Assembly (NCBI RefSeq): GCF_012912135.1
Contig: NZ_QMEB01000032.1
Span: forward strand, 1 to 34,522
Length of the DNA stretch: 34,522 nucleotides
Direction of reading: 5' to 3'
DNA from: Brasilonema bromeliae SPC951
GTDB lineage: Bacteria; Cyanobacteriota; Cyanobacteriia; Cyanobacteriales; Nostocaceae
The notes under the pieces are model-generated. The model had not been told where the DNA came from. It searched no databases and was given only the letters and a program-made list of their open reading frames with translations. The translations under genes were made by a program, and so were the position numbers. Positions 4,056-23,482 of this stretch are shown here, piece after piece (within the stretch, counting starts at the first letter, position 1; every line of letters begins with the position of its first letter).

Positions 4056-5765
4056 ATGGGACAAGGCTTTTTTCAAATTGGGGTAACGTTGTGTATTGTA
4101 ATCGCAATCACTCCACTATTGGGCAGATACATGGCGCGTGTCTTTTTGGGAGAAAAAACGCTGCTGGACTCAATCATGAACCCTGTAGAGGGAATAATTT
4201 ATAAAGTGGCAGATACAGCCAGAATTGATGACATGACGGGTTGGCAGTATGCCAGAGCAGTACTTTGCAGCAATATAATCATGGGTATTGTGGTGTTTTT
4301 GCTGATATGTCTTCAGCAATTTTTACCTTGGAATCCTCAGGGATTAGCTGCTCCTAAATGGGACATCACGCTGCACACGACAATTTCATTTTTAACCAAC
4401 ACTGACCAGCAACACTACTCTGGTGAAACAACTTTAAGTTATTTTAGCCAAACAGCAGCTTTAACTTTTTTGATGTTTACTTCAGCCGCAACTGGGTTAG
4501 CAGTCGGCATCGCATTCATCAGAGGTTTGACAGGTAGACGACTGGGAAATTTCTACATTGATCTGACTCGTTCTATAACGCGCATATTGCTGCCAATTTC
4601 GATTGTGGGTGCGATCGCACTACTAGCCCTAGGCGTACCACAAACCTTAGATGGATCTTTGAAATTGACAACATTGGAGGAAGGAACGCAGTATCTCGCC
4701 AGAGGTCCTGTTGCTTCCTTTGAGATCATCAAACAATTGGGAGAGAATGGCGGTGGTTTTTTTGGCGCAAATTCTGCTCATCCGTTTGAAAATCCCAATA
4801 CCATTTCTAACCTCATAGAAATCATCGCCATGATTTGTATTCCAGCGGCGTTGATTCACACTTATGGTATTTTTGCCAATAACGCCAAGCAAGCTAAACT
4901 ACTTTTTTGGATGGTCTTTGCCATCTATGGAATTTTGATTGGTGTCACAGCGATTGCTGAGTATCAAGGAAATCCCCTGATTGATAACGCCTTGGGATTA
5001 GAACAGCCTAATTTAGAGGGGAAGGAAGTCAGGTTTGGCTGGGCACAAACGGCGTTGTGGGCAATTACGACGACTGGAACTATGACTGGTTCTGTAAACG
5101 GGATGCATGATTCCTTGATGCCTCAGGGAGTTTTTTCCACCTTATTAAATATGTTTTTGCAGATAGTTTGGGGTGGACAAGGAACTGGAACCGCTTACTT
5201 ATTCATTTATTCAATTCTCACCGTATTTCTCACAGGACTGATGGTGGGACGGACTCCAGAATTTTTAGGACGCAAAATAGAAAAGCAACAAATTGTCCTT
5301 GCCAGTGTCGTCCTGCTGGTTCACCCAATTGCTGTATTGATCCCCAGTGCCATTAGCTTAGCATTTCCAAATACCTTAGCATTTCTGATTCCACCGCCGG
5401 GATATACAAAATCCCCCGAATTTCACAACATCTCACGAGTGATTTACGAATACGCCTCAGCTAGTGCTAACAATGGTTCTGGCTTGGAGGGATTGGGAGA
5501 TAGCACTTTGTGGTGGAACTTAAGTACTTGTTTTAGCCTTCTGATGGGAAGATACATACCAATTATTGCCATTTTGCTTTTAGCACAAAGCATGGCAGCC
5601 AAACAACCAGTACCCGAAACACCAGGCACCCTCAGAACCGACTCTACATTATTTACTGCTATTACAGCTGGAGTCATTTTGATTTTGGGTGTGTTGACGT
5701 TCTTCCCCGTTTTAGCTTTAGGACCGATCGCCGAAAGTATTAAACTTGCCAGCCGCATCAAATAA
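4056..5765 (+). CDS. kdpA: Potassium-transporting ATPase subunit KdpA
   Basis: 569 aa multi-TM protein with selectivity-filter-like segments ([36 protein letters not shown]). Followed by kdpB. Confidence 0.97.
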
Positions 5766-5787
5766 TCTTGTTCGTAATAGGCGTTTA

Positions 5788-5806
5788 TCAGTTATCAGTT
5801 ATCAGT
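5788..5806. repeat. Short (TTATCAG)n heptamer array
   Basis: tatcagttatcagttatcag. Confidence 0.6.
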
Positions 5807-6075
5807 AGGACTTATATCATGTCCGGTTAATTGCTTATAAATTCCGAAGAACCCCACCCCGGTTTTGTCTTGCGCCAAAACCGCCCCTCCCCGCTTGCGG
5901 GGAGGGGATTAAGGGGAGGGGTGCAGATATCGCGGTAATCACAACTAACCAGCCGGACATGATATTACGCAAAAACTCTTTTAAACCCTCTTAACTATGC
6001 GCTAAGGCGCACGCTACGCTAACGTGTTCTTTGCGTCCTTTGCGGTTTATTTTTTCATTATTTTGCGTAAGTCCT
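5807..6075. mobile_element. MITE-like outer element with GGACTTACGCAAAA / TTTTGCGTAAGTCC termini, interrupted by an inner element
   Basis: The left terminus is split (AGGACTT ... ACGCAAAA at 5967). The right terminus TTTTGCGTAAGTCCT is at 6061-6075. Confidence 0.6.
5814..5965. mobile_element. Inner MITE-like element with ATATCATGTCCGG / CCGGACATGATAT terminal inverted repeats
   Basis: Perfect 13-bp terminal inverted repeats around ~150 bp. Internal hairpin CCCCTCCCCGCTTGCGGGGAGGGG. Confidence 0.7.
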
Positions 6076-6138
6076 GATCAATAAGCGTGTTCACTGGACG
6101 CCCACCATAACATAATCCCCAATTCACAATTCCCTCTC

Positions 6139-8247
6139 ATGGACTCCACAAATCCTTCACCCAAACCTTCTTATTCTCCTCGTAAAAGCGATCGCCGCCA
6201 AGCACGTAAACAATCGCGAGTCAGCACCAGAGGACTTTACCTCAGAGCCATCAAAGATGCTTTTGTCAAGCTCAATCCTAAATACGCGATCAAAAACCCG
6301 GTCATGTTCTTGGTTTGGGTTGGTACAATTATCACCACTATAGCGACTATCGACCCTTATTTGTTTGGTCCAGTTTCAGGCAACAATTTACAACTTTTCA
6401 ACGGATTAATTACAGCAATTTTGTTCTTCACCGTTTTATTTGCCAACTTTGCGGAAGCAGTCGCAGAGGGACGGGGTAAAGCGCAAGCTGATGCTTTAAG
6501 GACAACCAAGTCAGAAACAATTGCCAAAAAACTTCTCTCTGATGGTTCAGTTAGTGAAGTTTCTTCCACCAGCTTGCGGATAGGCGATACAGTGTATGTG
6601 GCTGCTGGTGATGTCATCCCTGCTGATGGGGAAGTGACTATGGGTGTCGCCAGTGTGGATGAATCTGCAATTACTGGGGAATCTGCACCAGTTTTGAAGG
6701 AAACAGGTTCAGATGTGGCTAGTTCAGTTACTGGTGGTACGCGAATTCTCTCTGATGAACTTATTATCCGTATCACTGCAGATCCAGGCAAGGGGTTTAT
6801 CGACCGGATGATTGCTTTGGTGGAAGGAGCAGAACGCACAAAAACACCGAATGAGATTGCTTTGACGGTGTTACTAGCAGTTCTAACCTTGGTGTTTCTT
6901 TTTGTTGTGGTGACTTTGCCCGCGATCGCCCGCTATGTTGGAAGTCCAATTAGTGTGGTAGTATTAGTTGCCTTGTTAGTTGCGTTAATTCCGACAACAA
7001 TTGGGGGATTACTGAGTGCGATCGGCATTGCTGGTATGGATCGAGTTGCCCAGTTTAACGTCATAGCCACCTCAGGACGAGCAGTTGAAGCGTGCGGTGA
7101 TGTCAATACCTTAGTACTCGATAAAACAGGTACAATCACTCTCGGTAATCGTTTGGCAGAAGGGTTTATCCCCATCAGCACCTATTCAACACAGCAAGTT
7201 GCCAATGTTGCCTTAGCAGCAAGTATTTTTGATGATACACCAGAAGGGAAATCAATTGTTCGACTGGCAGAAAAGTTAGGTGCAAAAATTGATTTTGACA
7301 GCCACAGAGCCGAAGCTGTAGAGTTTTCAGCAAAAACTCGTATGAGTGGTACAAACTTACCCAATGGTAGCCAAGCGCGTAAGGGTGCAGTATCGGCAAT
7401 TAAGGGATTTGTCCGTTCTCGCAATCAACAAGATACGCCGACGCCGGTACTGGATGCAGCATATGAAGGAATTTCACAACTGGGAGGGACACCTTTAGCA
7501 GTAGCCCTTGATAGTGAAATTTACGGCGTCATTTATCTTAAGGATATCATTAAACCAGGTATCCGTGAACGTTTTGAGCAGTTGCGGCGGATGGGAGTGC
7601 GTACCGTCATGCTGACTGGAGACAACCGCATTACCGCGTCTGTGATTGCGGGGGAAGCTGGAGTTGATGACTTTATTGCCGAAGCCACCCCAGAAGATAA
7701 AATCTCTGTGATTCAGCGCGAACAAGCGGCGGGCAAACTGGTGGCGATGACGGGTGACGGTACTAACGATGCACCCGCACTAGCCCAGGCAAATGTCGGA
7801 GTAGCAATGAATACGGGTACTCAGGCAGCAAAAGAAGCAGCCAATATGGTGGATTTGGACTCTGATCCCACAAAGCTGATTGATATTGTTGCGATTGGAA
7901 AACAACTGCTGATTACTCGCGGTGCTTTGACAACGTTTTCTATTGCCAATGATATTGCCAAGTATTTTGCAATTATCCCAGTGTTGTTTACCTCAGCTAA
8001 TTTGGGAAGTTTAAATATCATGAAGTTAACGAGTACCAATTCTGCTGTCCTGTCGGCGTTGATTTACAATGCTTTGATTATTCCAGCTTTGATTCCTTTG
8101 GCACTCACTGGTGTAAAATTTCAACCTTTGACGGCTAATCAGCTTTTGCAACGAAATATTTTTCTGTATGGTTTGGGAGGTGTGATTGCGCCGTTTATCG
8201 CAATTAAGTTGATTGACGTGTTGATTACTCTGGCAGGATTGGCTTAG
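6139..8247 (+). CDS. kdpB: Potassium-transporting P-type ATPase subunit KdpB
   Basis: 702 aa. Contains the DKTGTIT phosphorylation motif, [30 protein letters not shown] and [11 protein letters not shown]. Confidence 0.98.
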
Positions 8248-8285
8248 AAAACAAATCGTAGCAAGCGCAGAGAAAGGAGAGGAAA

Positions 8286-8558
8286 ATGATCAAAAAAAAT
8301 GTTCTATCAAGTAAGTTTTTCTTAACAAACGTACCTGAGGCAATTTCTTTTGTCTGGTTGCAATGGCGCTCTCAAAAGTTGCCTCTCGCTATTTTTGTAG
8401 CGCTGTGCCTAAATTTGCTGATTGCCCCGATAGTATATGCTGCTGGCGACGGTACTTTGGAACGCCTTTCTGCTTGGGCAATTGGTGTTTTGGGATTCAT
8501 AACACTAGCAATTATCCTTTATTTGTCTGTTGTCGTTTTTCAGCCAGAACGCTTTTAA
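8286..8558 (+). CDS. kdpG: KdpG/KdpF-like small membrane protein
   Basis: 90 aa, between kdpB and kdpC. The C-terminal WAIGVLGFITLAIILYLSVVVFQPERF resembles a KdpF transmembrane helix, with an additional N-terminal TM segment. Confidence 0.65.
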   Translation: MIKKNVLSSKFFLTNVPEAISFVWLQWRSQKLPLAIFVALCLNLLIAPIVYAAGDGTLERLSAWAIGVLGFITLAIILYLSVVVFQPERF

Positions 8559-8568
8559 TTAGGTAATA

Positions 8569-8697
8569 TAGGATTCTTATTTGATTTTTGCGAAACTAGG
8601 TACAGTTTCTGTTCCCTGTTAAGCGTTCCCTGTTCCCTATTAAGCGTTCCCTCTTTCCTAGCTCAACTAGTAAATTCATAAACCAAACCCGATTCCG
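8569..8697. repeat. Dispersed intergenic element, copy 1 (AGGATTC-TATTTGATTTTT ... TTCATAAACCAAACCCGATTCC)
   Basis: Its ends match those of the 32930-33074 copy. The middle is GTTCCCT-type heptamers. Confidence 0.75.
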
Positions 8698-8749
8698 ACA
8701 CAATTTTGTTAATTATGACAGTAAATTTCCGAGGTCGTTAAAGTTTTGT

Positions 8750-9355
8750 ATGTCTATTTATAGAGAAATTAGTAAAGCAATTCGCATCACCTTCATCTTA
8801 TGGTTATTAACGGCAATTATCTATCCTTTATTCATACTTTTCGTCGCTCAAGTCCCCTTTCTTAAATACAAAGCTCAAGGCAGCATAGTGCAAAATATCA
8901 AGGGAGAAATCATCGGTTCAGCTTTGATTGGTCAACAATTCAAATCTGACCAGTATTTCCACAGTCGTCCTAGTACAATTAGATATAGCCAAGGAAAGCA
9001 AGGTAATCCTACTGGGGTCTCTGGAGCTAGCAATCTCGCACCTAGCAGTCCACAATTGCTACAGCGAATTGTAGAAGAAGCAAATCTACTGAAAGATGAA
9101 GAAATTCAACCCATTGCTGACTTAATTTACACATCTGGTTCAGGTTTAGATCCGCATATCTCTATCAAAGCAGTACGGCAGCAGTTGGATAGAGTGGCTC
9201 GTGCCCGTAAACTCAGACCAGATGAGATACTTCCTTTTATAAATAAGTATACAGAAGGAAGATTTTTAGGTATTTTTGGTGAGCCTGGAGTTAATGTTCT
9301 AAAATTAAATTATGCTCTGGATTTAGATGAGTTTAACCGTCAACAAAATAGATAA
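8750..9355 (+). CDS. kdpC: Potassium-transporting ATPase subunit KdpC
   Basis: 201 aa with GSALIGQQF...YFHSRPST, ASGASN-like GVSGASNLAPSSP, DLIYTSGSGLDPHIS. Confidence 0.96.
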   Translation: MSIYREISKAIRITFILWLLTAIIYPLFILFVAQVPFLKYKAQGSIVQNIKGEIIGSALIGQQFKSDQYFHSRPSTIRYSQGKQGNPTGVSGASNLAPSSPQLLQRIVEEANLLKDEEIQPIADLIYTSGSGLDPHISIKAVRQQLDRVARARKLRPDEILPFINKYTEGRFLGIFGEPGVNVLKLNYALDLDEFNRQQNR

Positions 9356-9429
9356 GTAGTTATTAGTCATTGTTTCTTGACCTGTGATTTTCGCCTTTTA
9401 AATACTCTCAGGATTTATCACACCACCAG

Positions 9430-10596
9430 ATGTTTGATAATACTCAAACACCACAAGCCGGGGCTATGCCTGCAACCTTTCCTGCTAGCATAAGTCCAGC
9501 AAGACGAGGTAAGCATAAAATTTACATAGGTATGGCACCCGGAGTAGGCAAAACCTACCGGATGCTGGAAGAAGCTCATGCACTCAAAGACGAAGGAATT
9601 GATGTTGTTATTGGGCTTTTAGAAACCCACGGACGCAAAGAAACAGGGCAAAAGGCAAACGGGTTAGAAATAATACCCCGTAAGGAAATTCCTCGCGGTG
9701 GATTAACTCTAACAGAAATGGATACGAATGCGATCATTGCTCGCTCACCTCAGTTAGCATTGATTGATGAATTAGCACATACAAATGTCCCAGGTTCCCT
9801 ACGAGAAAAACGCTACCAAGATGTAGAAGTCATTTTGGCATCAGGTATTGATGTCTACTCCACAATGAATATTCAGCATTTGGAGAGTCTCAATGATTTG
9901 GTAGCGCGAATTACTGGTGTGGTTGTGCGAGAACGGGTTCCTGACCGTATTTTAGAAGAAGCGGATGAGGTGGTAGTAATAGATGTTACACCAGAAACAC
10001 TGCAAGAACGCTTGTTAGAAGGCAAAATCTACGCGCCGCAAAAAATTCAACAATCACTAGATAACTTTTTCCAACGCCGTAACCTGATTGCCTTAAGAGA
10101 GTTAGCACTGCGGGAGGTAGCAGATAACGTTGAGGAAGATGCCGTTGCTTCCACTCCACAAGGTCAATTCTGTAACATTCACGAGCGAGTTTTGGTATGT
10201 GTATCCACTTATCCCAACTCAATCCAATTATTACGTCGGGGAGCGAGAATTGCGAGTTACATGAGTGCTCCTCTATTTACCATATATATTTCTCATCCAG
10301 AGCGCTTCCTGACTAAGGAGGAAAGTTTGCACATCGAAACTTGTGAAAAACTTTGCAAAGAATTTGACGGTACATTCATTCGTACCACTGGCACTGACGT
10401 AGCCAAGGCGATCGCACAAATCGCTGAACAATACCGTATCACTCAAATTGTGATTGGGGCAAGTCAGCGATCACGCTGGCAAATTCTCTTCAAAGGCGCT
10501 TTAACCCATAAATTGCTACGATTACTGAAAAACGTTGATTTACATATTATTTCCGCTGAGAAAAACAATACTCCCACTCGTTCAGCAATTGATTAA
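9430..10596 (+). CDS. kdpD: Short KdpD: N-terminal KdpD sensor domain plus USP-like domain, no histidine kinase
   Basis: 388 aa with GMAPGVGKTYRMLEEAH, ETHGRKET, LIDELAHTNVPGS, a USP-like ERVLVCVSTYPNS region and IVIGASQRSRW. The protein ends before any TM or HisKA region. Confidence 0.92.
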   Translation: MFDNTQTPQAGAMPATFPASISPARRGKHKIYIGMAPGVGKTYRMLEEAHALKDEGIDVVIGLLETHGRKETGQKANGLEIIPRKEIPRGGLTLTEMDTNAIIARSPQLALIDELAHTNVPGSLREKRYQDVEVILASGIDVYSTMNIQHLESLNDLVARITGVVVRERVPDRILEEADEVVVIDVTPETLQERLLEGKIYAPQKIQQSLDNFFQRRNLIALRELALREVADNVEEDAVASTPQGQFCNIHERVLVCVSTYPNSIQLLRRGARIASYMSAPLFTIYISHPERFLTKEESLHIETCEKLCKEFDGTFIRTTGTDVAKAIAQIAEQYRITQIVIGASQRSRWQILFKGALTHKLLRLLKNVDLHIISAEKNNTPTRSAID

Positions 10597-12144: not shown

Positions 12145-13599
12145 ATGTTTGAAGCATTAGCTGACCGTTTAGAAGGTGCCTGGAAGAAACTCCGGGGTCA
12201 GGACAAAATCTCCCAATCGAATATTCAAGACGCTTTGCGCGAAGTGCGTCGTGCGCTGTTAGAAGCGGATGTTAATCTTCAGGTAGTTAAAGATTTTGTC
12301 ACCGAAGTTGAAACCAAGGCGCTGGGAGCGGAAGTCATTGCTGGCGTCCGACCTGACCAACAGTTCATCAAGATTGTCCACGATGAACTAGTGCAGGTGA
12401 TGGGGGAAGAGAATGTTCCTTTAGCACAAGCTGATCACTCTCCCACAGTTGTTCTGATGGCAGGGTTGCAGGGTACTGGGAAAACGACTGCTACTGCCAA
12501 GTTAGCCTTGCATCTACGTAAATTAGAACGCAGCTGCTTAATGGTGGCGACGGACGTGTATCGTCCAGCGGCTATTGACCAATTGATCACACTAGGTAAG
12601 CAAATTGACGTGCCAGTGTTTGAACTCGGATCTGATGCTGATCCAGTTGAGATTGCACGGCAGGGCGTGGAACGCGCCAAAGCAGAAGGGGTTGACACAG
12701 TTATTATTGATACTGCTGGTCGGTTACAAATTGACCAAGACATGATGGCGGAGTTAGCCCAGATCAAAAAAACTGTCCAACCCGATGAAACTCTTTTGGT
12801 GGTAGACTCCATGACGGGTCAAGAAGCCGCCAATCTCACCCGTACTTTCCACGAAAAAATTGGGATTACGGGTGCAATTCTTACCAAGTTGGATGGTGAT
12901 AGCCGGGGTGGGGCAGCACTTTCTGTGCGGCATATCTCAGGAGCACCCATTAAGTTTGTCGGTGTGGGTGAAAAGGTTGAAGCTTTACAACCGTTTTATC
13001 CTGACCGTATGGCATCGCGCATTTTGGGCATGGGCGATGTTCTGACCTTGGTAGAAAAGGCTCAAGAAGAAATTGACCTTGCTGATGCTGAGAAAATGCA
13101 GGAGAAAATCCTGTCAGCGAACTTCGACTTTACCGATTTTCTCAAGCAAATGCGCCTACTCAAGAACATGGGTTCACTGGGTGGTATAATTAAGCTCATC
13201 CCTGGGATGAACAAGCTAACAGATGACCAACTTAAGCACGGAGAAACCCAGCTTAAGCGCTGTGAAGCGATGATTAATTCCATGACGCGTCAAGAGCGCC
13301 AGAACCCCGATTTGTTGGCAAGTTCTCCTAGTAGACGGCGACGCATTGCGAATGGAGCGGGTTATAAAGAGACAGACGTTAGTAAACTGGTCAGTGACTT
13401 CCAAAGAATGCGCAATATGATGCAGCAAATGGGTCAAGGGCAGTTCGCTGGTATGCCAGGAATGTTTGGTGGAATGGGTGGTCCGGCTGCTGCTGGTAAC
13501 AGTCCAGCTGCCCCTGGTTGGCGGGGTTACAATAGCGGCGCTGGCTCGAAAAAGAAGCCGAAGAAAGACAAAAAGAAGAAAGGCTTCGGTACGCTTTAG
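12145..13599 (+). CDS. ffh: Signal recognition particle protein Ffh
   Basis: 484 aa. MFEALADRLEGAWKKLRGQ, GLQGTGKTTATAKLA, DTAGRLQ, and a Met-rich C-terminal M domain. Confidence 0.98.
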   Translation: MFEALADRLEGAWKKLRGQDKISQSNIQDALREVRRALLEADVNLQVVKDFVTEVETKALGAEVIAGVRPDQQFIKIVHDELVQVMGEENVPLAQADHSPTVVLMAGLQGTGKTTATAKLALHLRKLERSCLMVATDVYRPAAIDQLITLGKQIDVPVFELGSDADPVEIARQGVERAKAEGVDTVIIDTAGRLQIDQDMMAELAQIKKTVQPDETLLVVDSMTGQEAANLTRTFHEKIGITGAILTKLDGDSRGGAALSVRHISGAPIKFVGVGEKVEALQPFYPDRMASRILGMGDVLTLVEKAQEEIDLADAEKMQEKILSANFDFTDFLKQMRLLKNMGSLGGIIKLIPGMNKLTDDQLKHGETQLKRCEAMINSMTRQERQNPDLLASSPSRRRRIANGAGYKETDVSKLVSDFQRMRNMMQQMGQGQFAGMPGMFGGMGGPAAAGNSPAAPGWRGYNSGAGSKKKPKKDKKKKGFGTL

Positions 13600-13838
13600 C
13601 CACTCATGAGTGGTTAGCCGCAATTCACAAATAACAAACAGCTACTAACACCTAAGACTTGGCAAATGCTAAAATAGGCATTTTAGCACCAGAAGTAAAA
13701 CTGCCTACCCAAGGGGACAGCTTTCAACAGGAATAACATTGCCTTTGGAACTGTCTTCAGGAAACTTCACGCTCACCTAACTTGCCAATAAACTAACTGC
13801 AAACAGATTCCTAAAAACAGGAGAATGATTTCTTAACC

Positions 13839-14099
13839 ATGATTAAACTGCGCCTGAAGCGATACGGTAAGAAGGGAGAACCAAGTTACCGCATAATCGC
13901 AATCAACAACCTCGCTCGCCGCGATGGTCGTCCGTTGGAAGAACTGGGTTTTTATAACCCCAGAACTGATGAAGTACGACTGGATGTTCCCGGAATCGTC
14001 AAGCGACTACAACAAGGCGCTCAACCGACTGATACCGTACGTCACATCCTGCAAAAAGCCAATGTCTTTGAACAGGTCAGTGGAAAAGCCTCAACATAA
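13839..14099 (+). CDS. rpsP: 30S ribosomal protein S16
   Basis: 86 aa. [43 protein letters not shown]. Confidence 0.97.
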
Positions 14100-14493
14100 A
14101 ATCGGAACAAAATCCCCCACAACCAGTCCAGACTACGTTGGACTGGTACGGTTTCTGATGCAACCGTTTTTAGATTCTCCTGAGTCTTTAAGCATCGATT
14201 GTGAAATGTCTAACACCCTCAACCGTGCTTGGATTCGCATTGCCTTTGAAAGCTTAGATAAGGGAAAAGTATTTGGTCGAGGTGGACGTAATATTCAAGC
14301 GATTCGCACTGTGATTACTGCAGCAGCTCAAACAGCTGGACACTCAGTATACCTGGACATCTATGGCAGCAGTGCTGGTAATCGGGATGACTCATCTTTT
14401 GAAGAAGACAGGGAAGAACGATTACCGCCACCAAAACCCAGAGAAAAACGTGGAAACGAACATAAACCTATTGCTAGAATACGCTCCCACTAG
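14062..14493 (+). CDS. KH-domain RNA-binding protein (KhpA-like)
   Basis: [32 protein letters not shown] is a GxxG KH motif. The in-frame ATG at 14062 (or GTG at 14080) overlaps the rpsP end. The ORF track start at 13924 lies deep inside rpsP and is unlikely. Confidence 0.8.
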
Positions 14494-14886
14494 ATTTCAC
14501 ACAAAGTCCGTAACAAAAGGTTAAAAGGTGAATACCAGCACTCAGTAACTAGTCAACCGCAGCTTTTATCGACTTAGGAAATTCAAGTCAAAGTTTGTAC
14601 CGAAGTGCGATCATAGTAGAAAAGCTAGCATTTCAAAAAAAACCCGGTTAGCAATAGCTTGGTTTGGCACAGTTGCAAGCTTCATTTGATTCGGTCTACC
14701 CCAAAGCGTCAAAGGTGTTGTGTAAGCGCCGAGCATGATTGCTACCATCTTACGCCTACTCGGTTGAGTCTAGCACTCGTAAACTAAGTAAAGCGCTCAC
14801 ACCATAAGTCAGAAAATAAAAAGCAGCGGTTGACTACGTTTTTAGATGATACTTAGAGAATCTCTGTAAGGAGGTGAAACCAGGGA

Positions 14887-15063
14887 GTGGCTGAAGTCCG
14901 TTTGGGTGAAGATGAGTCAATTGACTCAGCATTAAGGCGTTTTAAAAAGAAAATTCAAAAAGCCGGAATTTTATCCGAGGTCAAGCGCCGAGAAAGATAC
15001 GAAAAACCCAGTCTGCGCCGTAAGCGCAAAGCGGAAGCCGCACGCAAAGGTGGTCGCTTCTAA
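14887..15063 (+). CDS. rpsU: 30S ribosomal protein S21 (not in the supplied ORF track)
   Basis: GTG start with upstream AAGGAGGTGAA. Translates to [58 protein letters not shown]. Confidence 0.95.
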
Positions 15064-15309
15064 ATCAAAGTCATATCTTTGATGATGGCGGTTAACCAAT
15101 GCCAGCTAGCTATTTACGTTAAGGTTTGAAAGTTGTTGTAGAGCAAACTCAGGGAAAGTAGAGCAGCGATTTTACCTGCCTCTACTTTTCCTAACCAAGT
15201 CCGATTTCAACGCCAATGTTCTTAACATCAACTAAACAACAAAATTGTTTGAATTGTTTAGTTCAATTAAAGTCTGTGAAGTCTTTTCCTAATTTTGAAT
15301 TCTGAATTT

Positions 15310-16266
15310 ATGATGTCAGGTGCCTTAACGATTGAACTGCCGAATCTTCCAAGTGCGATCGCACTAGCAGGAGAGGGGGAAGAAAATCTCAAAACTTTGG
15401 CACAACAAACAGGAGCCAATATAGTTCTGCGGGGACAAGAACTGTATATTTCTGGCACAGAAAAGCAAGTGGATTTGGCGAGTCGATTAGTGCGATCGCT
15501 TGAAGACCTTTGGGGCAAAGGCAACAATATTTCTAGTACAGATATATTAACAGCTCGCCAAGCCTTGGACACTCATCGTGAAGGGGAACTGCTAGATTTA
15601 CAGCGGGACATCATTGCTAGAACGCGTAAAAGTGAGGAAGTCCGCGCCAAAACCTTCCGACAACGACAGTATATCGAAGCACTACGCAAACGGGATTTAA
15701 CTTTTTGCACTGGTCCAGCCGGTACTGGTAAGACTTTCCTCGCAGTCGTCGTCGCTGTACAAGCACTTCTGGCGAACCAATTTGAACGGCTGATTCTCAC
15801 TCGTCCTGCTGTCGAAGCTGGCGAAAGACTTGGTTTTTTACCAGGAGATTTGCAGCAGAAAGTGAATCCCTATTTGCGTCCACTCTACGATGCTATCAAC
15901 GAATTTATTGATCCAGAAAAAGTTCCATCACTGATGGAAAGAGGCGTCATTGAAGTTGCTCCTTTAGCGTATATGCGGGGACGGACTCTCAACAACGCTT
16001 TTGTCATTGTTGATGAAGCTCAAAACACCACACCAGCTCAAATGAAAATGGTTTTGACTCGTTTGGGTTTCCGTTCCCGTATGGTGATTACAGGTGACAT
16101 CACACAAACCGACTTACCAACCAACCAACAATCTGGATTAACGGTAGCTATACAAATTTTAAAACACGTAGAAGGCATAGCTTTTTGCGAATTCTCTCAA
16201 AAAGATGTTGTGCGCCATCCTCTTGTTCAGCGTATAGTCGCTGCATACGAACAACATGAAAAATAG
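15310..16266 (+). CDS. phoH: PhoH-like ATPase
   Basis: FCTGPAGTGKTFLAVVVAVQAL, TRPAVEAGERLGFLPGD, FVIVDEAQNTTPAQMKMVLTRLG, GDITQTDLP. Confidence 0.95.
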   Translation: MMSGALTIELPNLPSAIALAGEGEENLKTLAQQTGANIVLRGQELYISGTEKQVDLASRLVRSLEDLWGKGNNISSTDILTARQALDTHREGELLDLQRDIIARTRKSEEVRAKTFRQRQYIEALRKRDLTFCTGPAGTGKTFLAVVVAVQALLANQFERLILTRPAVEAGERLGFLPGDLQQKVNPYLRPLYDAINEFIDPEKVPSLMERGVIEVAPLAYMRGRTLNNAFVIVDEAQNTTPAQMKMVLTRLGFRSRMVITGDITQTDLPTNQQSGLTVAIQILKHVEGIAFCEFSQKDVVRHPLVQRIVAAYEQHEK

Positions 16267-16281
16267 TCCCGAGTCATGAAA

Positions 16282-16318
16282 AAATGACAAATGACAAATG
16301 ACTAATGACACATGACTA
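16282..16318 (+). repeat. (AAATGAC)n heptamer array spanning the phoH-downstream gene junction
   Basis: aaatgacaaatgacaaatgactaatgacacatgacta. Confidence 0.8.
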
Positions 16319-16716
16319 AAACACTAAAAGAATTTTTGGAAGCTTGTGAAACTCTGGGAACACTGCGTCTGATTGTCACAAGCAGTGCTGCTGTTTTGGA
16401 AGCACGCGGTAGAGTGGAAAAGCTGTTTTATGCAGAACTCCCAAAAGGTAAGTACGCGAACATGCACACTGAAGGTTTTGAATTTCACTTGAATATGGAT
16501 AAAATTACGCAGGTGAAATTTGAAACGGGTGAAGCGAAGCGAGGTAACTTTACCACCTATGCCATTCGGTTTTTGGATGACAAACAAGAGCCAGCTTTGA
16601 GTTTGTTTCTACAATGGGGTAAACCAGGAGAATACGAACCTGGACAAGTGGAGGCTTGGCAGACTTTACGGGAGCAATATGGAGAACTCTGGGAACCTGC
16701 ACCAGCAGAGATTTGA
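16312..16716 (+). CDS. Putative ChuX/HutX-like heme-utilisation family protein
   Basis: 134 aa single-domain protein. The family assignment is by overall resemblance only (HLNMDKITQVKFE..., LSLFLQWGKPGEYEPGQVEAWQTLREQYG). Confidence 0.45.
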   Translation: MTKTLKEFLEACETLGTLRLIVTSSAAVLEARGRVEKLFYAELPKGKYANMHTEGFEFHLNMDKITQVKFETGEAKRGNFTTYAIRFLDDKQEPALSLFLQWGKPGEYEPGQVEAWQTLREQYGELWEPAPAEI

Positions 16717-16820: not shown

Positions 16821-17330
16821 TTAAGCTATAATAGAAAACTGCATAACATCATGATTACTACCACGCAAAACAGACTCAATTTGTTTTCCGTGCAAGCGCT
16901 TCTTCAAAAAAGCTTCTAAAAAGCCTTGAATAACGCCTAAAGTATAGCTGCAGTTTCGTAATGATCCCTCTGCTTCACCAGCAGAACAAAAAGTTTCTTT
17001 GGCATAGACTTTGTAAATGTCTCCTTCTAGTTCTATCTTGTCGATCAGGCACAAGCGAGTTCCCTCTTTGCCCAGAACCAAATTAATCTTGTATTGGATT
17101 TGTTCAAGAGACAATATTGCTTCATTGCCAACTAAATTTAAGTCTCTAGCCAAATTTTTGCCTTGATTGCGACCAGCAGATATCATTGCGATACCAGCGG
17201 TTTTGTCACCTAAAGTTTCTTCGATACCAACAAGAATTGCTTTCAAAAAGATTATACTGCTAAAATCACCAAGTTCTGGACGCAAATGCCCCATTTTATG
17301 ACTTATAAAAGTCTGTTCACTTGATATCAT
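16821..17330 (-). CDS. V4R/hydrocarbon-binding-like protein, paralog 1
   Basis: 169 aa. LRPELGDFSSIIFLKAILVGIEETLGDKTAGIAM...ETFCSAGEAEGSLRNCSYTLGVIQGFLEAFLKKRLHGKQIESVLRG. Homologous to the products at 18401 and 21934. Confidence 0.6.
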   Translation of the reverse strand: MISSEQTFISHKMGHLRPELGDFSSIIFLKAILVGIEETLGDKTAGIAMISAGRNQGKNLARDLNLVGNEAILSLEQIQYKINLVLGKEGTRLCLIDKIELEGDIYKVYAKETFCSAGEAEGSLRNCSYTLGVIQGFLEAFLKKRLHGKQIESVLRGSNHDVMQFSIIA

Positions 17331-17608
17331 CTTTTCCTTTCCTTTGTCTGTTGAGTTTATCTAGAATTCGTTTTACGGTAGAAATTAGTCTTAAGTTTCC
17401 CTGTAATTATTGTCAGAGTTTTGTCATATCTAACTCAGTTTGTCTGGTTTTTTCCCTGAAAATATAGCGTTTACCGGTTTCAGCTATCGAATGATGGTAA
17501 GTGTAATCCCATCACTCTATTTTTGTCATAGTTTAAGTTGCATTTGGTGTTTGAATTTTGCATTTCCATGCAAAATTTCAAATCTACAATCCATGCATTG
17601 GTTGACCT

Positions 17609-17986
17609 TTAACCCAATAGGGATGTTATTTTAGCAACAGCCCGTTTGATTTCTAGAAACAATAAGCCTTGCTTGACAGAGGCATGAGCGAGAACCAATA
17701 AAATTGCATCACCACAGCTAACCAACACGCCATAGCCTTTCTCACCTTCAACGAAGATACGATCAATATTACCGCGAACGAGTTCGTGTCCTATTTGTTC
17801 GCTCAACGAGAGCATAGATGCAGATATGGCAGCAGTGCGCCCTTCATTCATTCCTGGTGGTAACACAGAAGCCAAAGCTAAGCCATCAGGAGTTGCCAAG
17901 ATTGCACCCTGAACCCCTGTGCTGTTTGAGACAAAATTTTGCAGCTCGTCTTGTAGCATGGAAACGTGAATCCTAACTCTTTCCAT
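17609..17986 (-). CDS. Roadblock/LC7 domain protein (MglB-like), paralog 1
   Basis: 125 aa. LQNFVSNSTGVQGAILATPDGLALASVLPPG...AISASMLSLSEQIGHEL...IFVEGEKGYGVLVSCGDAILLVLA. Confidence 0.85.
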   Translation of the reverse strand: MERVRIHVSMLQDELQNFVSNSTGVQGAILATPDGLALASVLPPGMNEGRTAAISASMLSLSEQIGHELVRGNIDRIFVEGEKGYGVLVSCGDAILLVLAHASVKQGLLFLEIKRAVAKITSLLG

Positions 17987-18400
17987 TGTGAGTGAGGGTG
18001 TTTTAGTACTTTTTACAGATGTCGCTATTATAGTAAATCGCTATACCTACAATAGTATTAATTAAGTAGGCGTCATGAACTGCGTACACCAGCACGCATG
18101 AAAAATTTTCTCATCTCCCCCTGCTCAAAGCTCCCTGCTCCCTTGCTTTTTCGAGTCAGATGGGTGTAAATAAACAGAACTATATTGCAATCGGCAAAGG
18201 GGCAGGGAAAAGGGGAAAACCTTTAACCTTTTCTCTTTGCGCTGACAAAACGTTATATACTTCGCTAAAATTAGTGCCAACCTACTCGGAGATCATTTAT
18301 AAAGTAAATCTTATCTGAGGAGGGTTTTCCTCCGGGAGAAACTGTCCCTCCTATTGTAGCACAAGCGCTTGAAAAAAAATTTTGTGAGTCTTCTTAGCTC

Positions 18401-18946
18401 TCACAAAAAAGTAAACTTAAAGACATCGTAATCACCACCACGAAGCACTGATTCCGTGTGTTTACCTTGCAAGCGCTTACCGAGAACTTGCTCTATAAAT
18501 CCCCAAACAACACCGAGCGTGTAAGTACATTTACGCTCGGAACCTTGAGGCTCGCCCGCTGAACAAAAGGTTTCTGAAGTGTAAACATGAATAACATCGT
18601 CTTCTCTTATGACGTTATTAATGATGCACAAGCAAGTTCCGTCTTTACCTAAAGCTGTTTCGAGTTTGTAGCCAATATCCTCAAAGGAGCAGGATGATCC
18701 TGAGAAACATAATTCTTGTGCAAGATCTTTGCCGCGATGACGCCCAGCTGTAGTCAAGGCGATCGCAGCTGCCTTTTCACCTAAAGCTTTTTCTATTCCG
18801 GTAACTGCCGACTTAAAACAGATAATACTATTGAAGTCTCCAAGAATTGGACGTAGCTTTGCCTCTGATTTTACTAGAGCTTTGTCCTCATCTGGCAGCC
18901 CAACACGTCTTTCCGCTAAAGACAAGGCTTGTGGTTGTAAAGTCAT
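18401..18946 (-). CDS. V4R/hydrocarbon-binding-like protein, paralog 2
   Basis: 181 aa. LRPILGDFNSIICFKSAVTGIEKALGEKAAAIAL...ETFCSAGEPQGSERKCTYTLGVVWGFIEQVLGKRLQGKHTESVLRGGDYDVFKF. Confidence 0.6.
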   Translation of the reverse strand: MTLQPQALSLAERRVGLPDEDKALVKSEAKLRPILGDFNSIICFKSAVTGIEKALGEKAAAIALTTAGRHRGKDLAQELCFSGSSCSFEDIGYKLETALGKDGTCLCIINNVIREDDVIHVYTSETFCSAGEPQGSERKCTYTLGVVWGFIEQVLGKRLQGKHTESVLRGGDYDVFKFTFL

Positions 18947-19408
18947 GTGATAGTTCTCCTAGTATCAACAAAAACCAGATTTCATCAAAAGAGCGCGTCT
19001 AGTCTAATTTGTTGGCTAAAAATTAATCGGTTGATGAGTCTGTTTTCCTTCTTCCTTGTGCCTCTGCACTCCTGCACCCTTGCAACTTCAATCCAACATT
19101 TTAGTGTGGACGCAGTACTACTCAATGTCTTTCTATATTTATAGTTAGGTAATTACTGATAATCCCAAAAAATACATATAATTGATACAAGTATTTATTA
19201 CTTAATATATTCCTAATAAATATTTACAATAAAATTAACAAAAAGTTGAAATATAAAGGTTTATTATCTATCCTGTAGATAAAAACCGACAGGCTGGTTT
19301 TAAGCGAGTCATAAAGTCCAAAAAAATTCTAGTTCACTTGAGCTTGCAGTGGTCTAGCTTGCTATGCTCACCACTTCCGACCTCTACCATTACTCCTCAG
19401 TGGCGCTG

Positions 19409-20434
19409 CTAAGTTTTGTTTCGACGAAAACTAAATAATCCTTGGAAGAACGACCGAATGACACGCAGCCAACCAACTAACTTTTGGAGAAACGACTGAG
19501 AGACATTTGTTTGGCCCGAAGAGTCTATGACTGGAGTTGGTAAGTTTTCTGCTACAAGAGTCGTTTCTGCTACTATGTTAGTTAACGCCTGCGTGTTATC
19601 GGTTTGACTGGAAGAGTCTACAATTGACTCTGGTAAATTTTCTGCTACAGAAGTCGTTTCTGTGACTTCGTTCCTTAAAATAGCAGTTGGGAAAACTTCT
19701 TCTGCTAGATCACTCATCAGGAGTTGAAAGGCAATCTGCTGCACTTTTTCTACAGCAAGTCCAAGTTGATTGGCAATTTCCCTCAAGGAAATGGTACCAT
19801 TCGCCAACTGCCAAACTTGCCATTCCAGAGAGTCTAACTGGAACTGAGGCTGAGTCATATTCTTATTTGACAGGATTAAACTTAACTCAGGCAGTTGTTC
19901 TGCTAGTAGACTCCAGTCTCGCAGCGATAAGCCGGAGGCTTGACGCTTCGCGTATCGCAAACCGATAAGTGTTACTTCAGTTGCTGGTAGACTCATGCCT
20001 GTCATCTCTGCTGAGGGTAAATCAGCTTCGGCATCAAATTCAAACTGACCATCCTTGAGTTCAAATAAAGCAGATACTTGATCTACAACCTGGGTACGAA
20101 ACAGTAGTTTCAGTTGTTCAGCTTGCAGCAGTCCTTGGAACTTGAGGCATAAACCTATCGGTGTGTTAACCCGACAGATCTTAGCCATTCTCAAAGTAAC
20201 ATCCTGGCTGACCCAGCCCCGTTGGGCGATCATTGAAACCAAGCCTTTTTCGTCTAGACGATCAGCAGCAGCCACAATCCGACCTTGATACAGCCAGATG
20301 TAATAAACTGGCATAAAACCAGTCACATCAGCAGTAATGGTACGAATTGTGAGTAATCCTGTGTTGTCTCCTTGCTCTAGCAATTGAAAGATTTTTGGCA
20401 AGGAAAATTCTGCTAAATTACCAGTAAATATCAT
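19409..20434 (-). CDS. DUF4388/PATAN-like domain protein
   Basis: 341 aa. Starts MIFTGNLAEFSLPKIFQLLEQGDNTGLLTIRT...YYIWLYQGRIVAAADR, followed by a second helical/HTH-like region and a repeat-rich C-terminus. Confidence 0.7.
   Translation of the reverse strand: MIFTGNLAEFSLPKIFQLLEQGDNTGLLTIRTITADVTGFMPVYYIWLYQGRIVAAADRLDEKGLVSMIAQRGWVSQDVTLRMAKICRVNTPIGLCLKFQGLLQAEQLKLLFRTQVVDQVSALFELKDGQFEFDAEADLPSAEMTGMSLPATEVTLIGLRYAKRQASGLSLRDWSLLAEQLPELSLILSNKNMTQPQFQLDSLEWQVWQLANGTISLREIANQLGLAVEKVQQIAFQLLMSDLAEEVFPTAILRNEVTETTSVAENLPESIVDSSSQTDNTQALTNIVAETTLVAENLPTPVIDSSGQTNVSQSFLQKLVGWLRVIRSFFQGLFSFRRNKT
19511..19680 (-). repeat. Intragenic tandem duplication, period about 93 nt (31 codons)
   Basis: ETTSVAENLPESIVDSSSQTDNTQ and ETTLVAENLPTPVIDSSGQTNVSQ. 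The gagtcta landmarks are 93 nt apart (19521 and 19614). Confidence 0.75.
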
Positions 20435-20827
20435 ATTAGTTTTACTTAGTAGTCTGACAGACTAGCAGGTTGAAATGTAAATTTTATATCTAGTACCTCT
20501 CTCAAAAATTTTGTCAGGGTATGAAATAAAGCTACGAAGTTAATAGACTGATAAGCTGTTTTTAATGAGAGTTATGCTGATAAGGCTTAATAAATAAGCT
20601 AGGTCTTGTTGATAAAGTCAGACCTAGCTTTTTACCCGTTGACAAATGGGAATTTCCCAGCGGCTTTGGTTAAAATTTTACAGGTCACAAAGCACGTGTG
20701 ACCTTCATAGGCAGCTAGGCGTTATGATCGACTTGATTGTACATCCAAATTTCTGCAATTTTCTGTAAATGTGCGCTGAAGTGCCACAATTTTAGTTAGC
20801 AGTTTCTAGCCGCTTGGTGAACTTTAA

Positions 20828-20909
20828 CAGTTATCAGTTATCAGTTATCAGTTATCAGTTATCACTGTTCACTGTTTACTGTTTACTGTTCACTGTTCAC
20901 TGTTCACTG
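20828..20909 (+). repeat. Composite heptamer array: (TTATCAG)n then (TGTTCAC/TGTTTAC)n
   Basis: cagttatcagttatcagttatcagttatcagttatcactgttcactgtttactgtttactgttcactgttcactgttcactga. Confidence 0.9.
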
Positions 20910-20923
20910 ATTTAAAGGCAGAA

Positions 20924-21298
20924 TTAGTACATCATAGCCTTTCTCAATTCTGTAAGAACACGCTTAATTTCTAGCAAGAGCAAGCCCTGCTTGGCACTAT
21001 CACTTGCTAAAACGAGTAGTACAGCATCCTCGCCGCATCCATTGAGAATTCCAAAACCCTTGTCACCTTCAACATAAATCCGCTCTATATTGCCTCTGGT
21101 TAACTCACTCCCAATGCGTTCACCAAGAGATATCATAGCCGCAGCCATTGCTGATACCCGCTCTTCATCCATCCCGCCTGGTAAGCTTGAGGATAAAGTT
21201 AGACCATCGGGAGAAACAAGCACTGCACCTTGCACATCACTGGTTGCAGTGACAAAGTTTTGCAGAATGCTGCTAAGTTTTGCTGTGTTGATTGCCAT
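20924..21298 (-). CDS. Roadblock/LC7 domain protein (MglB-like), paralog 2
   Basis: 124 aa. LQNFVTATSDVQGAVLVSPDGLTLSSSLPGGMDEERVSAMAAAMISLGERIGSEL...IYVEGDKGFGILNGCGEDAVLLVLA. Confidence 0.88.
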   Translation of the reverse strand: MAINTAKLSSILQNFVTATSDVQGAVLVSPDGLTLSSSLPGGMDEERVSAMAAAMISLGERIGSELTRGNIERIYVEGDKGFGILNGCGEDAVLLVLASDSAKQGLLLLEIKRVLTELRKAMMY

Positions 21299-21459
21299 CT
21301 TACACTCCTATGCAAGTTTTGATTTTGTAACCTGTAGATAATGTTTGGTTGCCAATTCAGTTTTCTATTTGACTACCTGCATTACAGGATTTTTCAAATG
21401 ATTAAACCACAAATCGTACAGTGGGCATTGTCCATAAAAGTCATTTGATGGACATGTGA

Positions 21460-21569
21460 AATATAGCGCTTCTGGTGTTGTGTGCAATATACGGTTGTAA
21501 TGAAAGTGCATGCACTTTCATTACATTATTCGTGGTAGTGTGTGTGATTCAAATGAGAACCGCTATATT
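21460..21569. mobile_element. MITE-like element with AATATAGCGcTTCT / AGAAcCGCTATATT termini and a central palindrome
   Basis: Terminal inverted repeats match 13 of 14. A 30-bp perfect palindrome lies at 21496-21525. Confidence 0.7.
21496..21525. repeat. 30-bp perfect palindrome TGTAATGAAAGTGCATGCACTTTCATTACA
   Basis: Direct reading; both arms are exactly reverse-complementary. Confidence 0.97.
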
Positions 21570-21933
21570 CGTTCGTGGCAATGCTCACCAAAGTAGAAAA
21601 CCCCTGTAATAAGCTTGCAGGCAAATTCTATCTGTGTGAACAGAGTTTGGGTAAGAGGATGACTGCATTTGCTGTATTAATGATCATCCTCTAAATATAT
21701 GCGATGAGGCAGTGGGAGGCGAGAGTTTCACAGGCTTAGACGCCCGCCAGAAGACTTCCCGCAATCTGCCGCAACTGCCGTAAGCGCAGCGTCTGGTGGA
21801 GGAGATACCTGATAGCCCTCCGGGTTCGCCAGAGCATAGCCGCGTTGTCTTCAATTGGTTTGGTGCAGCACCGATAGCTTGCGTGGCGGAGCCATTCCAA
21901 TTGCTTCTTACCCTTACACCCCTTCTTTTTATT

Positions 21934-22425
21934 TCAAAGGGGTGTAAACTCGAACTCCGTTTGAAGATTTATTTGATCGGCAACAGGAACTTGTCGAGCT
22001 TGGTGGCGTCTTTGCATAACCTGATCGATAAAGCCACCCAGTATACCTAGGGTAAATGGGCACAAACGGCTTGAACCTCCGGTCTCACCAGACATTTCAA
22101 CTGGCTCGGTCACCTTTACCCTAATAAAGTTTTCTTGTTGAGAAACTTCTTCGATCATACACAGTCGTGTTCCTTCCATACCTAAACACAAGTTTAGGCG
22201 CTTTAGTATAGTTGGAAGATCTTGTGATTCCATTGATGCCCCAAGTGCTGTGGCAATTTTCTTACCGTAAGTACGACCCGCAGCACTAATTATAACTGCT
22301 GCAGCTTTGGAACCTAGGTTATCTTCTATGCCATCCAGCAAAGCTTTGTAGTCCATTACATTGACGAAATCTCCTAGCTGTGGTCTGAGAGTACAGGAAG
22401 TTGCCATCATACGGTGATCACTCAT
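21934..22425 (-). CDS. V4R/hydrocarbon-binding-like protein, paralog 3
   Basis: LRPQLGDFVNVMDYKALLDGIEDNLGSKAAAVIISAAGRTYGK...GTRLCMIEEVSQ...SRLCPFTLGILGGFIDQVMQRR. The ORF track start at 22635 adds ~70 residues encoded by repeat-like DNA; a start near 22425 fits the paralogs better. Confidence 0.6.
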   Translation of the reverse strand: MSDHRMMATSCTLRPQLGDFVNVMDYKALLDGIEDNLGSKAAAVIISAAGRTYGKKIATALGASMESQDLPTILKRLNLCLGMEGTRLCMIEEVSQQENFIRVKVTEPVEMSGETGGSSRLCPFTLGILGGFIDQVMQRRHQARQVPVADQINLQTEFEFTPL

Positions 22426-22936
22426 AGAGAAAGAAATATTTGTCCAAAACTTGTAGATAGATGGTTTGGTTGATCGACGTGCCATAAAAAACCTGTCCCT
22501 TGCGGGCAATTTCTTAACCCGAAGGGCGCTGCTCTGGGCAACGGACTGGCTCCCCTGCCGCACTTCTGTTGTTTCACCAGTCTCTACGATGGGAAACCCG
22601 TCTCCATGTCTAGCGCTCAACAAACACTCGTTCACGTCCTGCTTACGAGTTTGTACTTAAGTCGCTGCTTTCTGGAACGTCTTGCACCCGAATTCCATTT
22701 AGCTCTAAAGGTTTTACGGCTATCTGGATAGGTTAAGGAGCTACTAATCAGGTGGTTATTTGCTGCCTGATGCCTTTGTTTAAGATAACATTAAAAATGA
22801 CATATTCAGGATAATTACTGATTTTTTTGGATGATGGGCTGAAAACACACCTTAAGGTTGATACCATACAATACAATTCGCTTAGAAAAAGTTATTTGTT
22901 GAGGCAAGCATTTGTAGGCATAAAAGCGCCCAGCTA

Positions 22937-23482
22937 TCAGGTGGTGTGCTGGTAGTAGTTAGCAAATTCTTCGACGAGTGCATTCAAAGCTTGTTTGACC
23001 GAAGTCACCTCGGTAGCATTGACTGTAATTATTGGTGGTCGAGTTTTCTCATCGTCCAGTCCTAAGGCGATCGCCACATCTTCCGCTTCCCATGCATCTG
23101 GGCAATCAGTATGAGTCAATCCAATCAGATACGGAATTTGCACCCGTTGATTCATAAAGTTGAGTTGTTTACGACCATAGCGAAAATGGTGTGGACGGTG
23201 AGCTGCTACTAGCAAAATGTAAGCGTGGGCTTTTGCAATCAATATCTCCCACATATAGTCAAATCTACTTTGTCCTGGTGTGCCATACAGGTGAAGTGAT
23301 TGATTTGGTCCTATAGTCAGCCGCCCAAAATCCAAAGTGACTGTGGTTGTTTTCTTCAGTAGTCCAACTTCATCTGTCGCTTTCCTGTCAGTATCCACAA
23401 CTTCTATTTCACTAATTGTCCGAATCAAGGTTGTTTTCCCCGCACCCATACCTCCTGTCACCACTATACGTAGGATTTCCAT
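22937..23482 (-). CDS. MglA/COG2229-like small Ras-family GTPase
   Basis: 181 aa. P-loop GGMGAGKTTLI, DFGRLTI, switch II-like LYGTPGQSRFDYMW, and a G4-like position reading THTD instead of NKxD. Confidence 0.85.
   Translation of the reverse strand: MEILRIVVTGGMGAGKTTLIRTISEIEVVDTDRKATDEVGLLKKTTTVTLDFGRLTIGPNQSLHLYGTPGQSRFDYMWEILIAKAHAYILLVAAHRPHHFRYGRKQLNFMNQRVQIPYLIGLTHTDCPDAWEAEDVAIALGLDDEKTRPPIITVNATEVTSVKQALNALVEEFANYYQHTT

Follow-up and report, generated by a model that had tools for sequence, protein, structure and literature searches.

Genes of the locus

We analyzed a stretch of 34,522 nucleotides from Brasilonema bromeliae SPC951 (contig NZ_QMEB01000032.1, positions 1 to 34,522; hereafter the window), focusing on a locus that encodes a small GTPase, two Roadblock/LC7 proteins, three V4R-like proteins, and one DUF4388/PATAN protein. 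An initial annotation, made from the letters of the window alone, had described seven consecutive minus-strand genes here as a candidate undescribed signalling locus, and all seven open reading frames (ORFs) at 16821-23482 are intact. The genes and features of the locus are as follows, with the evidence for each in brackets.

22937..23482, minus strand: small GTPase of 181 amino acids (aa), MglA family by its motifs (Pfam Ras/Arf/Roc matches, alignment motifs, tree)
21934..22485, minus strand: V4R-3, a divergent V4R-like protein (alignments; long branch with four orthologues)
20924..21298, minus strand: RB-2, a Roadblock/LC7 protein of the MglB type with a DG pair (Pfam PF03259, 2e-16)
19409..20434, minus strand: DUF4388/PATAN protein (Pfam PF14332, 1.9e-25; AlphaFold2 predicted local distance difference test, pLDDT, 82.5)
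19421..19501, minus strand: C-terminal amphipathic helix of the PATAN protein, SQSFLxxLVGWLR... (conserved in alignments; helix 313-338)
18401..18946, minus strand: V4R-2, a chimeric V4R protein with a protoglobin-derived N-terminal tail, residues 1-30 (AlphaFold2 and Foldseek fold)
18858..18974, minus strand: globin scar left by a lost protoglobin gene, with its 5' untranslated region, ribosome-binding site, and initial ~30 codons (hidden Markov model, HMM, and DNA alignments)
17609..17986, minus strand: RB-1, a Roadblock/LC7 protein (Pfam PF03259, 7e-15; tree)
16821..17330, minus strand: V4R-1 (weak Pfam V4R match, E 0.063; tree)

The start of V4R-3 is ambiguous (22485, 22425, or slightly later). 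NCBIfam added nothing beyond Pfam for the proteins of the locus, and scans for promoters and terminators in the locus gave results near chance.

The GTPase exceeds the Pfam cut-offs for Ras, Arf, and Roc and carries the motifs GGMGAGKTT (G1), TT (G2), GTPGQ (G3), and THTD (G4). Proteins of the MglA family (Groups 2-5) consist by definition of one small G domain, 150-240 aa long, with GTPGQ in G3 (PMC4316618). The window protein consists of one such domain, and YGTPGQ is invariant across nine GTPase orthologues. A threonine replaces the intrinsic arginine finger beside the G2 threonine, in a TTV-x-x-DFG stretch that is invariant in the GTPase alignment. By these motifs we assign the protein to the MglA family, and the Groups 2-5 signature (GTPGQ, TT) agrees with the comparison to MglA made in the initial annotation. 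Membership in Group 5, which is known from Cyanobacteria and Deinococcus/Thermus, is not demonstrable, since the lysine of its [NT]KxD motif is absent from G4 in the window protein and in its relatives (THxD, SHTD, or TYTD). Absence of this lysine has been reported for Groups 2 and 3 (PMC4316618).

Roadblocks of the MglB type regulate MglA GTPases (PMC4316618; PMC10933270). Both roadblock proteins of the locus are Robl_LC7 in Pfam, and a PDG motif with the conserved DG pair expected of MglB partners is invariant in 11 roadblock sequences. Such partners are encoded within four genes of the GTPase; in all 19 GTPase-bearing genomes of our sample (described below) a roadblock gene adjoins it. We note that many Scytonema/Calothrix cassettes (L037, L040, L048, and relatives) carry two GTPases or two roadblocks, and that one roadblock in cassettes of this type bears an N-terminal extension of ~65-100 aa. 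The window's genome also encodes a third, divergent roadblock (G000:C183:10733-11209) with no GTPase neighbor. We excluded it as a part of the system, as no cassette genes adjoin it.

The V4R proteins fell under every sequence cut-off: V4R-1 scored 13.8 bits against a Pfam threshold of 31, V4R-2 and V4R-3 had no match, and a 69-sequence V4R profile searched against the PDB by sequence only gave no credible match. We therefore settled their identity by structure. The AlphaFold2 model of V4R-2, built from the 69-sequence alignment, has a mean pLDDT of 87.7, and Foldseek matched it with probability 1.00 (template modelling score, TM, about 0.5-0.65) to the V4R domains of the phenol sensors MopR/PoxR/DmpR and to Bet3/TRAPPC3. 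Two helices (57-78 and 141-155) carry the glycine pairs G68/G72 and G145/G149, which are invariant or at least 90% conserved in the 69 sequences; such Gly-x3-Gly pairs in two helices mark the V4R/Bet3 family (PMC2253512). The V4R-like fold claimed initially is thus borne out on V4R-2. The presumed ligands of V4R domains are hydrophobic (PMC2253512).

The remaining protein contains a clear DUF4388 domain (89.7 bits against a cut-off of 25). Its AlphaFold2 model shows a PATAN domain (about 1-168), a winged-helix-like region (about 200-247), a disordered linker (about 250-310), and the C-terminal helix. A fold search with this model gave no significant match. It shares the PATAN/DUF4388 domain with the Pix/Tax response regulators PatA, PixG, and PixE. 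Unlike them, it showed no receiver domain in a Pfam scan, and it has the winged-helix-like middle and conserved terminal helix instead. Counterparts in Thermus and Deinococcus have a comparable terminal stretch by eye, with a hydrophobic moment of 0.47-0.52.

Conservation of the cassette and its putative sensor genes

We assessed conservation in two ways. For the first, 80 V4R loci, all cyanobacterial and from named genomes, were retrieved by V4R alone and their surroundings tested with profiles. A roadblock gene was present in 67 of the 80, a GTPase in 66, and a PATAN protein in 62, all on the strand of the V4R gene. Gene orders differ (V4R-RB-GTPase-PATAN, RB-GTPase-PATAN-V4R, PATAN-GTPase-RB-globin-V4R, and others, where RB is roadblock). 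The exact seven-gene layout recurs in Scytonema tolypothrichoides (L038) and in two Brasilonema (L036, L115); simpler forms occur in some 60 other loci of cyanobacteria. The arrangement of three V4R and two roadblock genes in the initial annotation is thus real, being present in four genomes, but it is not the general form, whose core is roadblock, GTPase, and PATAN protein plus a sensor. Some Nostocaceae loci (L054, L065, L070, L074, and relatives) have, upstream of the cassette, a histidine kinase (HisKA_3) paired with a response regulator of the LuxR type.

For the second, we sampled 194 genomes of the phylum. Within the window's class, strong roadblock matches and the GTPase occur in the same 19 genomes, and in each of them the two genes lie no more than about 1 kb apart. 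A V4R protein of the window's family was found in 13 of the 194, namely in 11 of the 19 GTPase-bearing genomes versus 2 of the other 175 (Fisher p 2e-11, with shared genome ancestry ignored).

Clustering of ORFs neighboring the 80 loci revealed a fifth family of about 185 aa, present in 36 of them at a median of 113 base pairs (bp) from the cassette. This family is a stand-alone protoglobin (PF11563, 4e-21) close to Tlr1989, whose structure is solved (8h17), and also related to a globin histidine kinase and to the aerotaxis transducer HemAT. We found no paper on Tlr1989 among the open-access papers searched. The protoglobin adjoins the cassette in 17 of the 19 GTPase-bearing genomes (Fisher p 3e-20, on the same terms) and is nearly absent elsewhere in the sample. 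Three small genomes (G085, G089, G179) have globin-RB-GTPase-PATAN without V4R, and in two loci (L121, L122) a hemerythrin follows the cassette. Five genomes (G048, G064, G072, G074, G153) encode a further protoglobin of this family apart from the cassette. The initial partner list had overlooked this usual partner, which the window locus has lost (see below).

Related operons occur outside the phylum. In plasmid records of Thermus and Deinococcus the GTPase is 39-46% identical to that of the window. Deinococcus operons have the order hypothetical-GTPase-roadblock-V4R, their genes overlapping or lying close together, and their V4R is 40-42% identical to V4R-1. By eye, the hypothetical protein begins like PATAN in D. 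ficus and D. gobiensis and has a short, basic, amphipathic C-terminus in these two and in D. sp. AB2017081; Pfam found no DUF4388 in it. Thermus operons read DUF4388-GTPase-roadblock-protoglobin-GGDEF/EAL, and that of T. brockianus has three protoglobins, one of them weak. The synteny that the initial annotation had proposed to look for across cyanobacteria is thus found there and across phyla. Neither a lack of co-occurrence nor an unrelated fold for the V4R-like proteins, which that annotation had named as grounds for refuting it, was observed. We conclude that the gene association is not chance and that the cassette is a real conserved signalling module. A globin in Thermus and a V4R in Deinococcus, beside the same core, point to an exchangeable sensor slot that, judged from gene content, takes either protein.

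Combination of a Bet3-like fold with a roadblock and a small GTPase recalls the TRAPP core of eukaryotes and Asgard archaea (TRAPPC3/Bet3, longins, and Rab), which pairs the same fold with a longin/roadblock-type platform. We considered that V4R and roadblock may together form an exchange-factor complex on the GTPase, with the Bet3-fold protein flanking the platform; V4R would then be more than a ligand sensor. The Foldseek matches of V4R-2 include Bet3/TRAPPC3 of human, mouse, Naegleria, and Thorarchaeota as well as chains of TRAPP-Rab complexes, and V4R has been proposed as the ancestor of Bet3 (PMC2253512). V4R, roadblock, and GTPase genes share one cassette in two phyla; this operon is notable because in the Asgard archaeon MK-D1 GTPase genes are generally not in operons with roadblock or TRAPPC3 genes (PMC10933270). 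However, V4R domains of phenol sensors score equal to or above Bet3, and several cassettes use a globin with no V4R, so the switch does not depend on V4R. We consider such a complex quite unlikely. A one-operon exchange module of TRAPP kind, in which V4R and roadblock would jointly regulate the GTPase and a gas-binding globin could replace V4R, we rate as rather unlikely. Membership in TRAPP itself is ruled out, as the cassette has a GTPGQ GTPase of the MglA type and roadblocks, not a DxxGQ Rab and a longin platform.

V4R proteins also occur with bilin-binding globins in the cyanobacterial BBAG/V4R/Fe-S cluster (slr0144-slr0149; PMC10151467), which raises the possibility of a tetrapyrrole- or bilin-linked system serving pigment or photosystem assembly rather than motility. 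A ChuX/HutX-like gene flanks the window locus, as this reading might predict. It lies, however, on the opposite strand in a housekeeping block (12145-16716, plus strand) that we read as ffh, rpsP, KH-domain, phoH, and the ChuX/HutX-like gene, and we excluded it as a part of the system. The ffh-rpsP-KH-phoH block is syntenic in about 20 related loci, which suggests a common chromosomal site for the cassette. Recurrent cassette neighbors include no Fe-S protein, heme oxygenase, or bilin reductase; their globin is a protoglobin (PF11563), not the phycobiliprotein-type paralogue of the BBAG cluster; and the text of PMC10151467 mentions no GTPase, roadblock, or DUF4388/PATAN protein. We therefore do not place the locus in that cluster, and regard a bilin-linked role as very improbable.

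A globin scar and the mosaic origin of the locus

A globin search of the window's genome found no match. Residues 1-31 of V4R-2, however, match the globin profile from its position 1 (protein HMM), a feature confined to the four orthologous proteins. At the DNA level, positions -28 to +89 of V4R-2 align with the start of the globin gene in Scytonema loci (leader plus first codons), and the sequence from +91 aligns with V4R from codon 2, so that the globin and V4R alignments abut (junction +89/+91). The scar scores 46-52 for the nearest Scytonema loci, versus a maximum of 20 in shuffled controls. V4R-2 is thus an in-frame deletion fusion, common to four genomes, that keeps the ribosome-binding site and N-terminal tail of a protoglobin gene. 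AlphaFold2 predicts the tail with low confidence (58-67). We note that synonymous divergence (dS) of V4R-2 from Brasilonema is unusually low (0.06, whereas the remaining six genes give 0.17-0.25), a hint of recombination or of constraint at the DNA level.

Trees point to different origins for the seven genes. These were quick trees without bootstrap, and we give Shimodaira-Hasegawa-like approximate likelihood ratio (SH-aLRT) supports. The GTPase (26 rows, SH-aLRT 99) and RB-1 (27 rows, SH-aLRT 98) fall within native Scytonema/Calothrix clades, and V4R-2 is sister to Scytonema V4R, alongside native Scytonema/Calothrix cassettes. RB-2 falls outside the clade of RB-1. The PATAN protein is likewise outside the Scytonema/Calothrix cassette clade and groups with V4R-RB-GTPase-PATAN cassettes. 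For V4R-1 the nearest outside clade is of the Coleofasciculus/Symplocastrum type (11 rows, SH-aLRT 97), and V4R-3 sits with its four orthologues on a long branch of uncertain placement. On these trees the locus is best described as a mosaic of cassettes. The V4R genes, which the initial annotation took as duplicated, and the roadblock genes come from different clades, and simple tandem duplication is ruled out.

Loss of the globin, large intergenic gaps, the divergence of V4R-3, and weak constraint on V4R-2 could together mean that the locus is a decaying remnant whose proteins no longer form a working switch. However, the seven ORFs are intact in four genomes, and the ratio of nonsynonymous to synonymous substitution (dN/dS) is below 1 for all seven genes, being highest in V4R-2 and 0.27-0.35 in V4R-3. 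Conservation relative to Brasilonema is strong for the GTPase (0.14) and RB-2 (0.06). We hold decay to be a highly doubtful explanation.

Several other features of the window are of note. A perfect palindrome of 30 bp (TGTAATGAAAGTGCATGCACTTTCATTACA, 21496-21525) lies between V4R-3 and RB-2 and may be an operator or hairpin. The RB-2/PATAN interval (20830-20910) contains short tandem repeats of heptamer-like units (AACAGTG and AACTGAT types) that resemble cyanobacterial short tandemly repeated repetitive (STRR) sequences. Read from ORF sequences alone, positions 4056-10596 appear to hold a kdp operon for potassium transport that includes a KdpD/UspA-like gene.

A proposed sensor-gated GTPase switch

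We hypothesize that the cassette encodes a ligand-gated GTPase switch of the MglA/MglB kind, of which the window holds a rebuilt copy, and consider this somewhat better than an even proposition. The sensors (V4R here, ancestrally also a heme protoglobin) would bind a hydrophobic ligand or gas and act via roadblock dimers on the one MglA-family GTPase and determine whether it is GTP- or GDP-bound. Together with the PATAN protein, the GTPase would then control surface motility machinery, probably type IV pili, and the terminal helix of the PATAN protein probably anchors it to the membrane or to a partner. From gene anatomy we infer each of these steps: ligand sensing, roadblock relay, PATAN output, and motility outcome. 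In the window copy the globin was deleted, V4R-2 retains the translation start and N-terminal tail of that gene, and RB-2 and the PATAN protein came from a second cassette.

The link to motility comes from neighboring genes and from precedent. Four Calothrix/Rivularia loci (L075, L079, L082, L102) continue past the cassette, on the same strand, with genes for a PATAN-type response regulator, a receiver, a CheW-like protein, and a large methyl-accepting chemotaxis protein (MCP), which in L082 has repeated GAF domains. By its gene content this operon, directly 3' of the cassette, is pix-like. PATAN regulators bind PilB1 and act on it in Synechocystis (PMC12288463). A precedent for coupling a globin to a roadblock domain is HGbRL of Methylacidiphilum (PMC4476040). 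HGbRL is one fused protein with a globin of another group and no PATAN or V4R described, whereas the cassette joins the pair as neighboring genes only.

Several observations weigh against the proposed switch. V4R occurs without the GTPase in two genomes (G062, and as fragments in G070), some V4R genes are located away from the cassette (L023, L034), and the Fisher values take no account of the genomes' shared ancestry. Constraint on V4R-2 is weak (dN/dS 0.67-0.80). Intergenic gaps of 278-635 bp in the window locus make a single transcript and co-expression uncertain. The motility link is based on neighbors in few related genomes, and in Thermus the cassettes neighbor cyclic di-GMP enzymes, so the output may differ there.

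Among known systems, the closest is the MglA/MglB switch (Groups 2-5, especially Group 5), which shares the single-domain GTPase with GTPGQ and threonine for the arginine finger, the coupled DG-pair roadblock, and the PATAN neighbor. The cassette differs in adding dedicated sensor genes (protoglobin, V4R). Streptomyces conservons (CvnA-D) likewise combine a small GTPase and a roadblock in one operon with sensory input, but the cassette has soluble sensors. The histidine kinase CvnA and the DUF742 protein CvnC, already missing in the initial annotation, are absent from the window cassette and from recurrent cassette genes, which rules out conservon membership. MglA/MglB genes beside PATAN genes have been described (Makarova 2006; Wuichet & Sogaard-Andersen 2014, PMC4316618), so the initial label of an undescribed locus fails for the GTPase-roadblock-PATAN core and holds only for the sensor part. 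The text of the 2014 paper names neither V4R nor globin. Among the open-access papers searched, which cannot prove absence, we found none joining roadblock with protoglobin, none on roadblock with V4R, cyanobacteria, and GTPase, and no description of the globin/V4R sensor slot.

If the proposed switch is correct, bacterial Ras-like switches would take their input directly from soluble sensors of ligands and gases, globin and V4R being interchangeable, and a connection of pilus-based motility with the sensing of oxygen or a ligand could be tested. It would also offer a compact system in culturable organisms (Thermosynechococcus, Anabaena, Deinococcus, Thermus) for studying how the V4R/Bet3 fold and small GTPases came together, and would address the open question of the origin of eukaryotic TRAPP. 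Should the TRAPP-like module prove true, it would provide a bacterial counterpart for testing how TRAPP-type GTPase activation arose.

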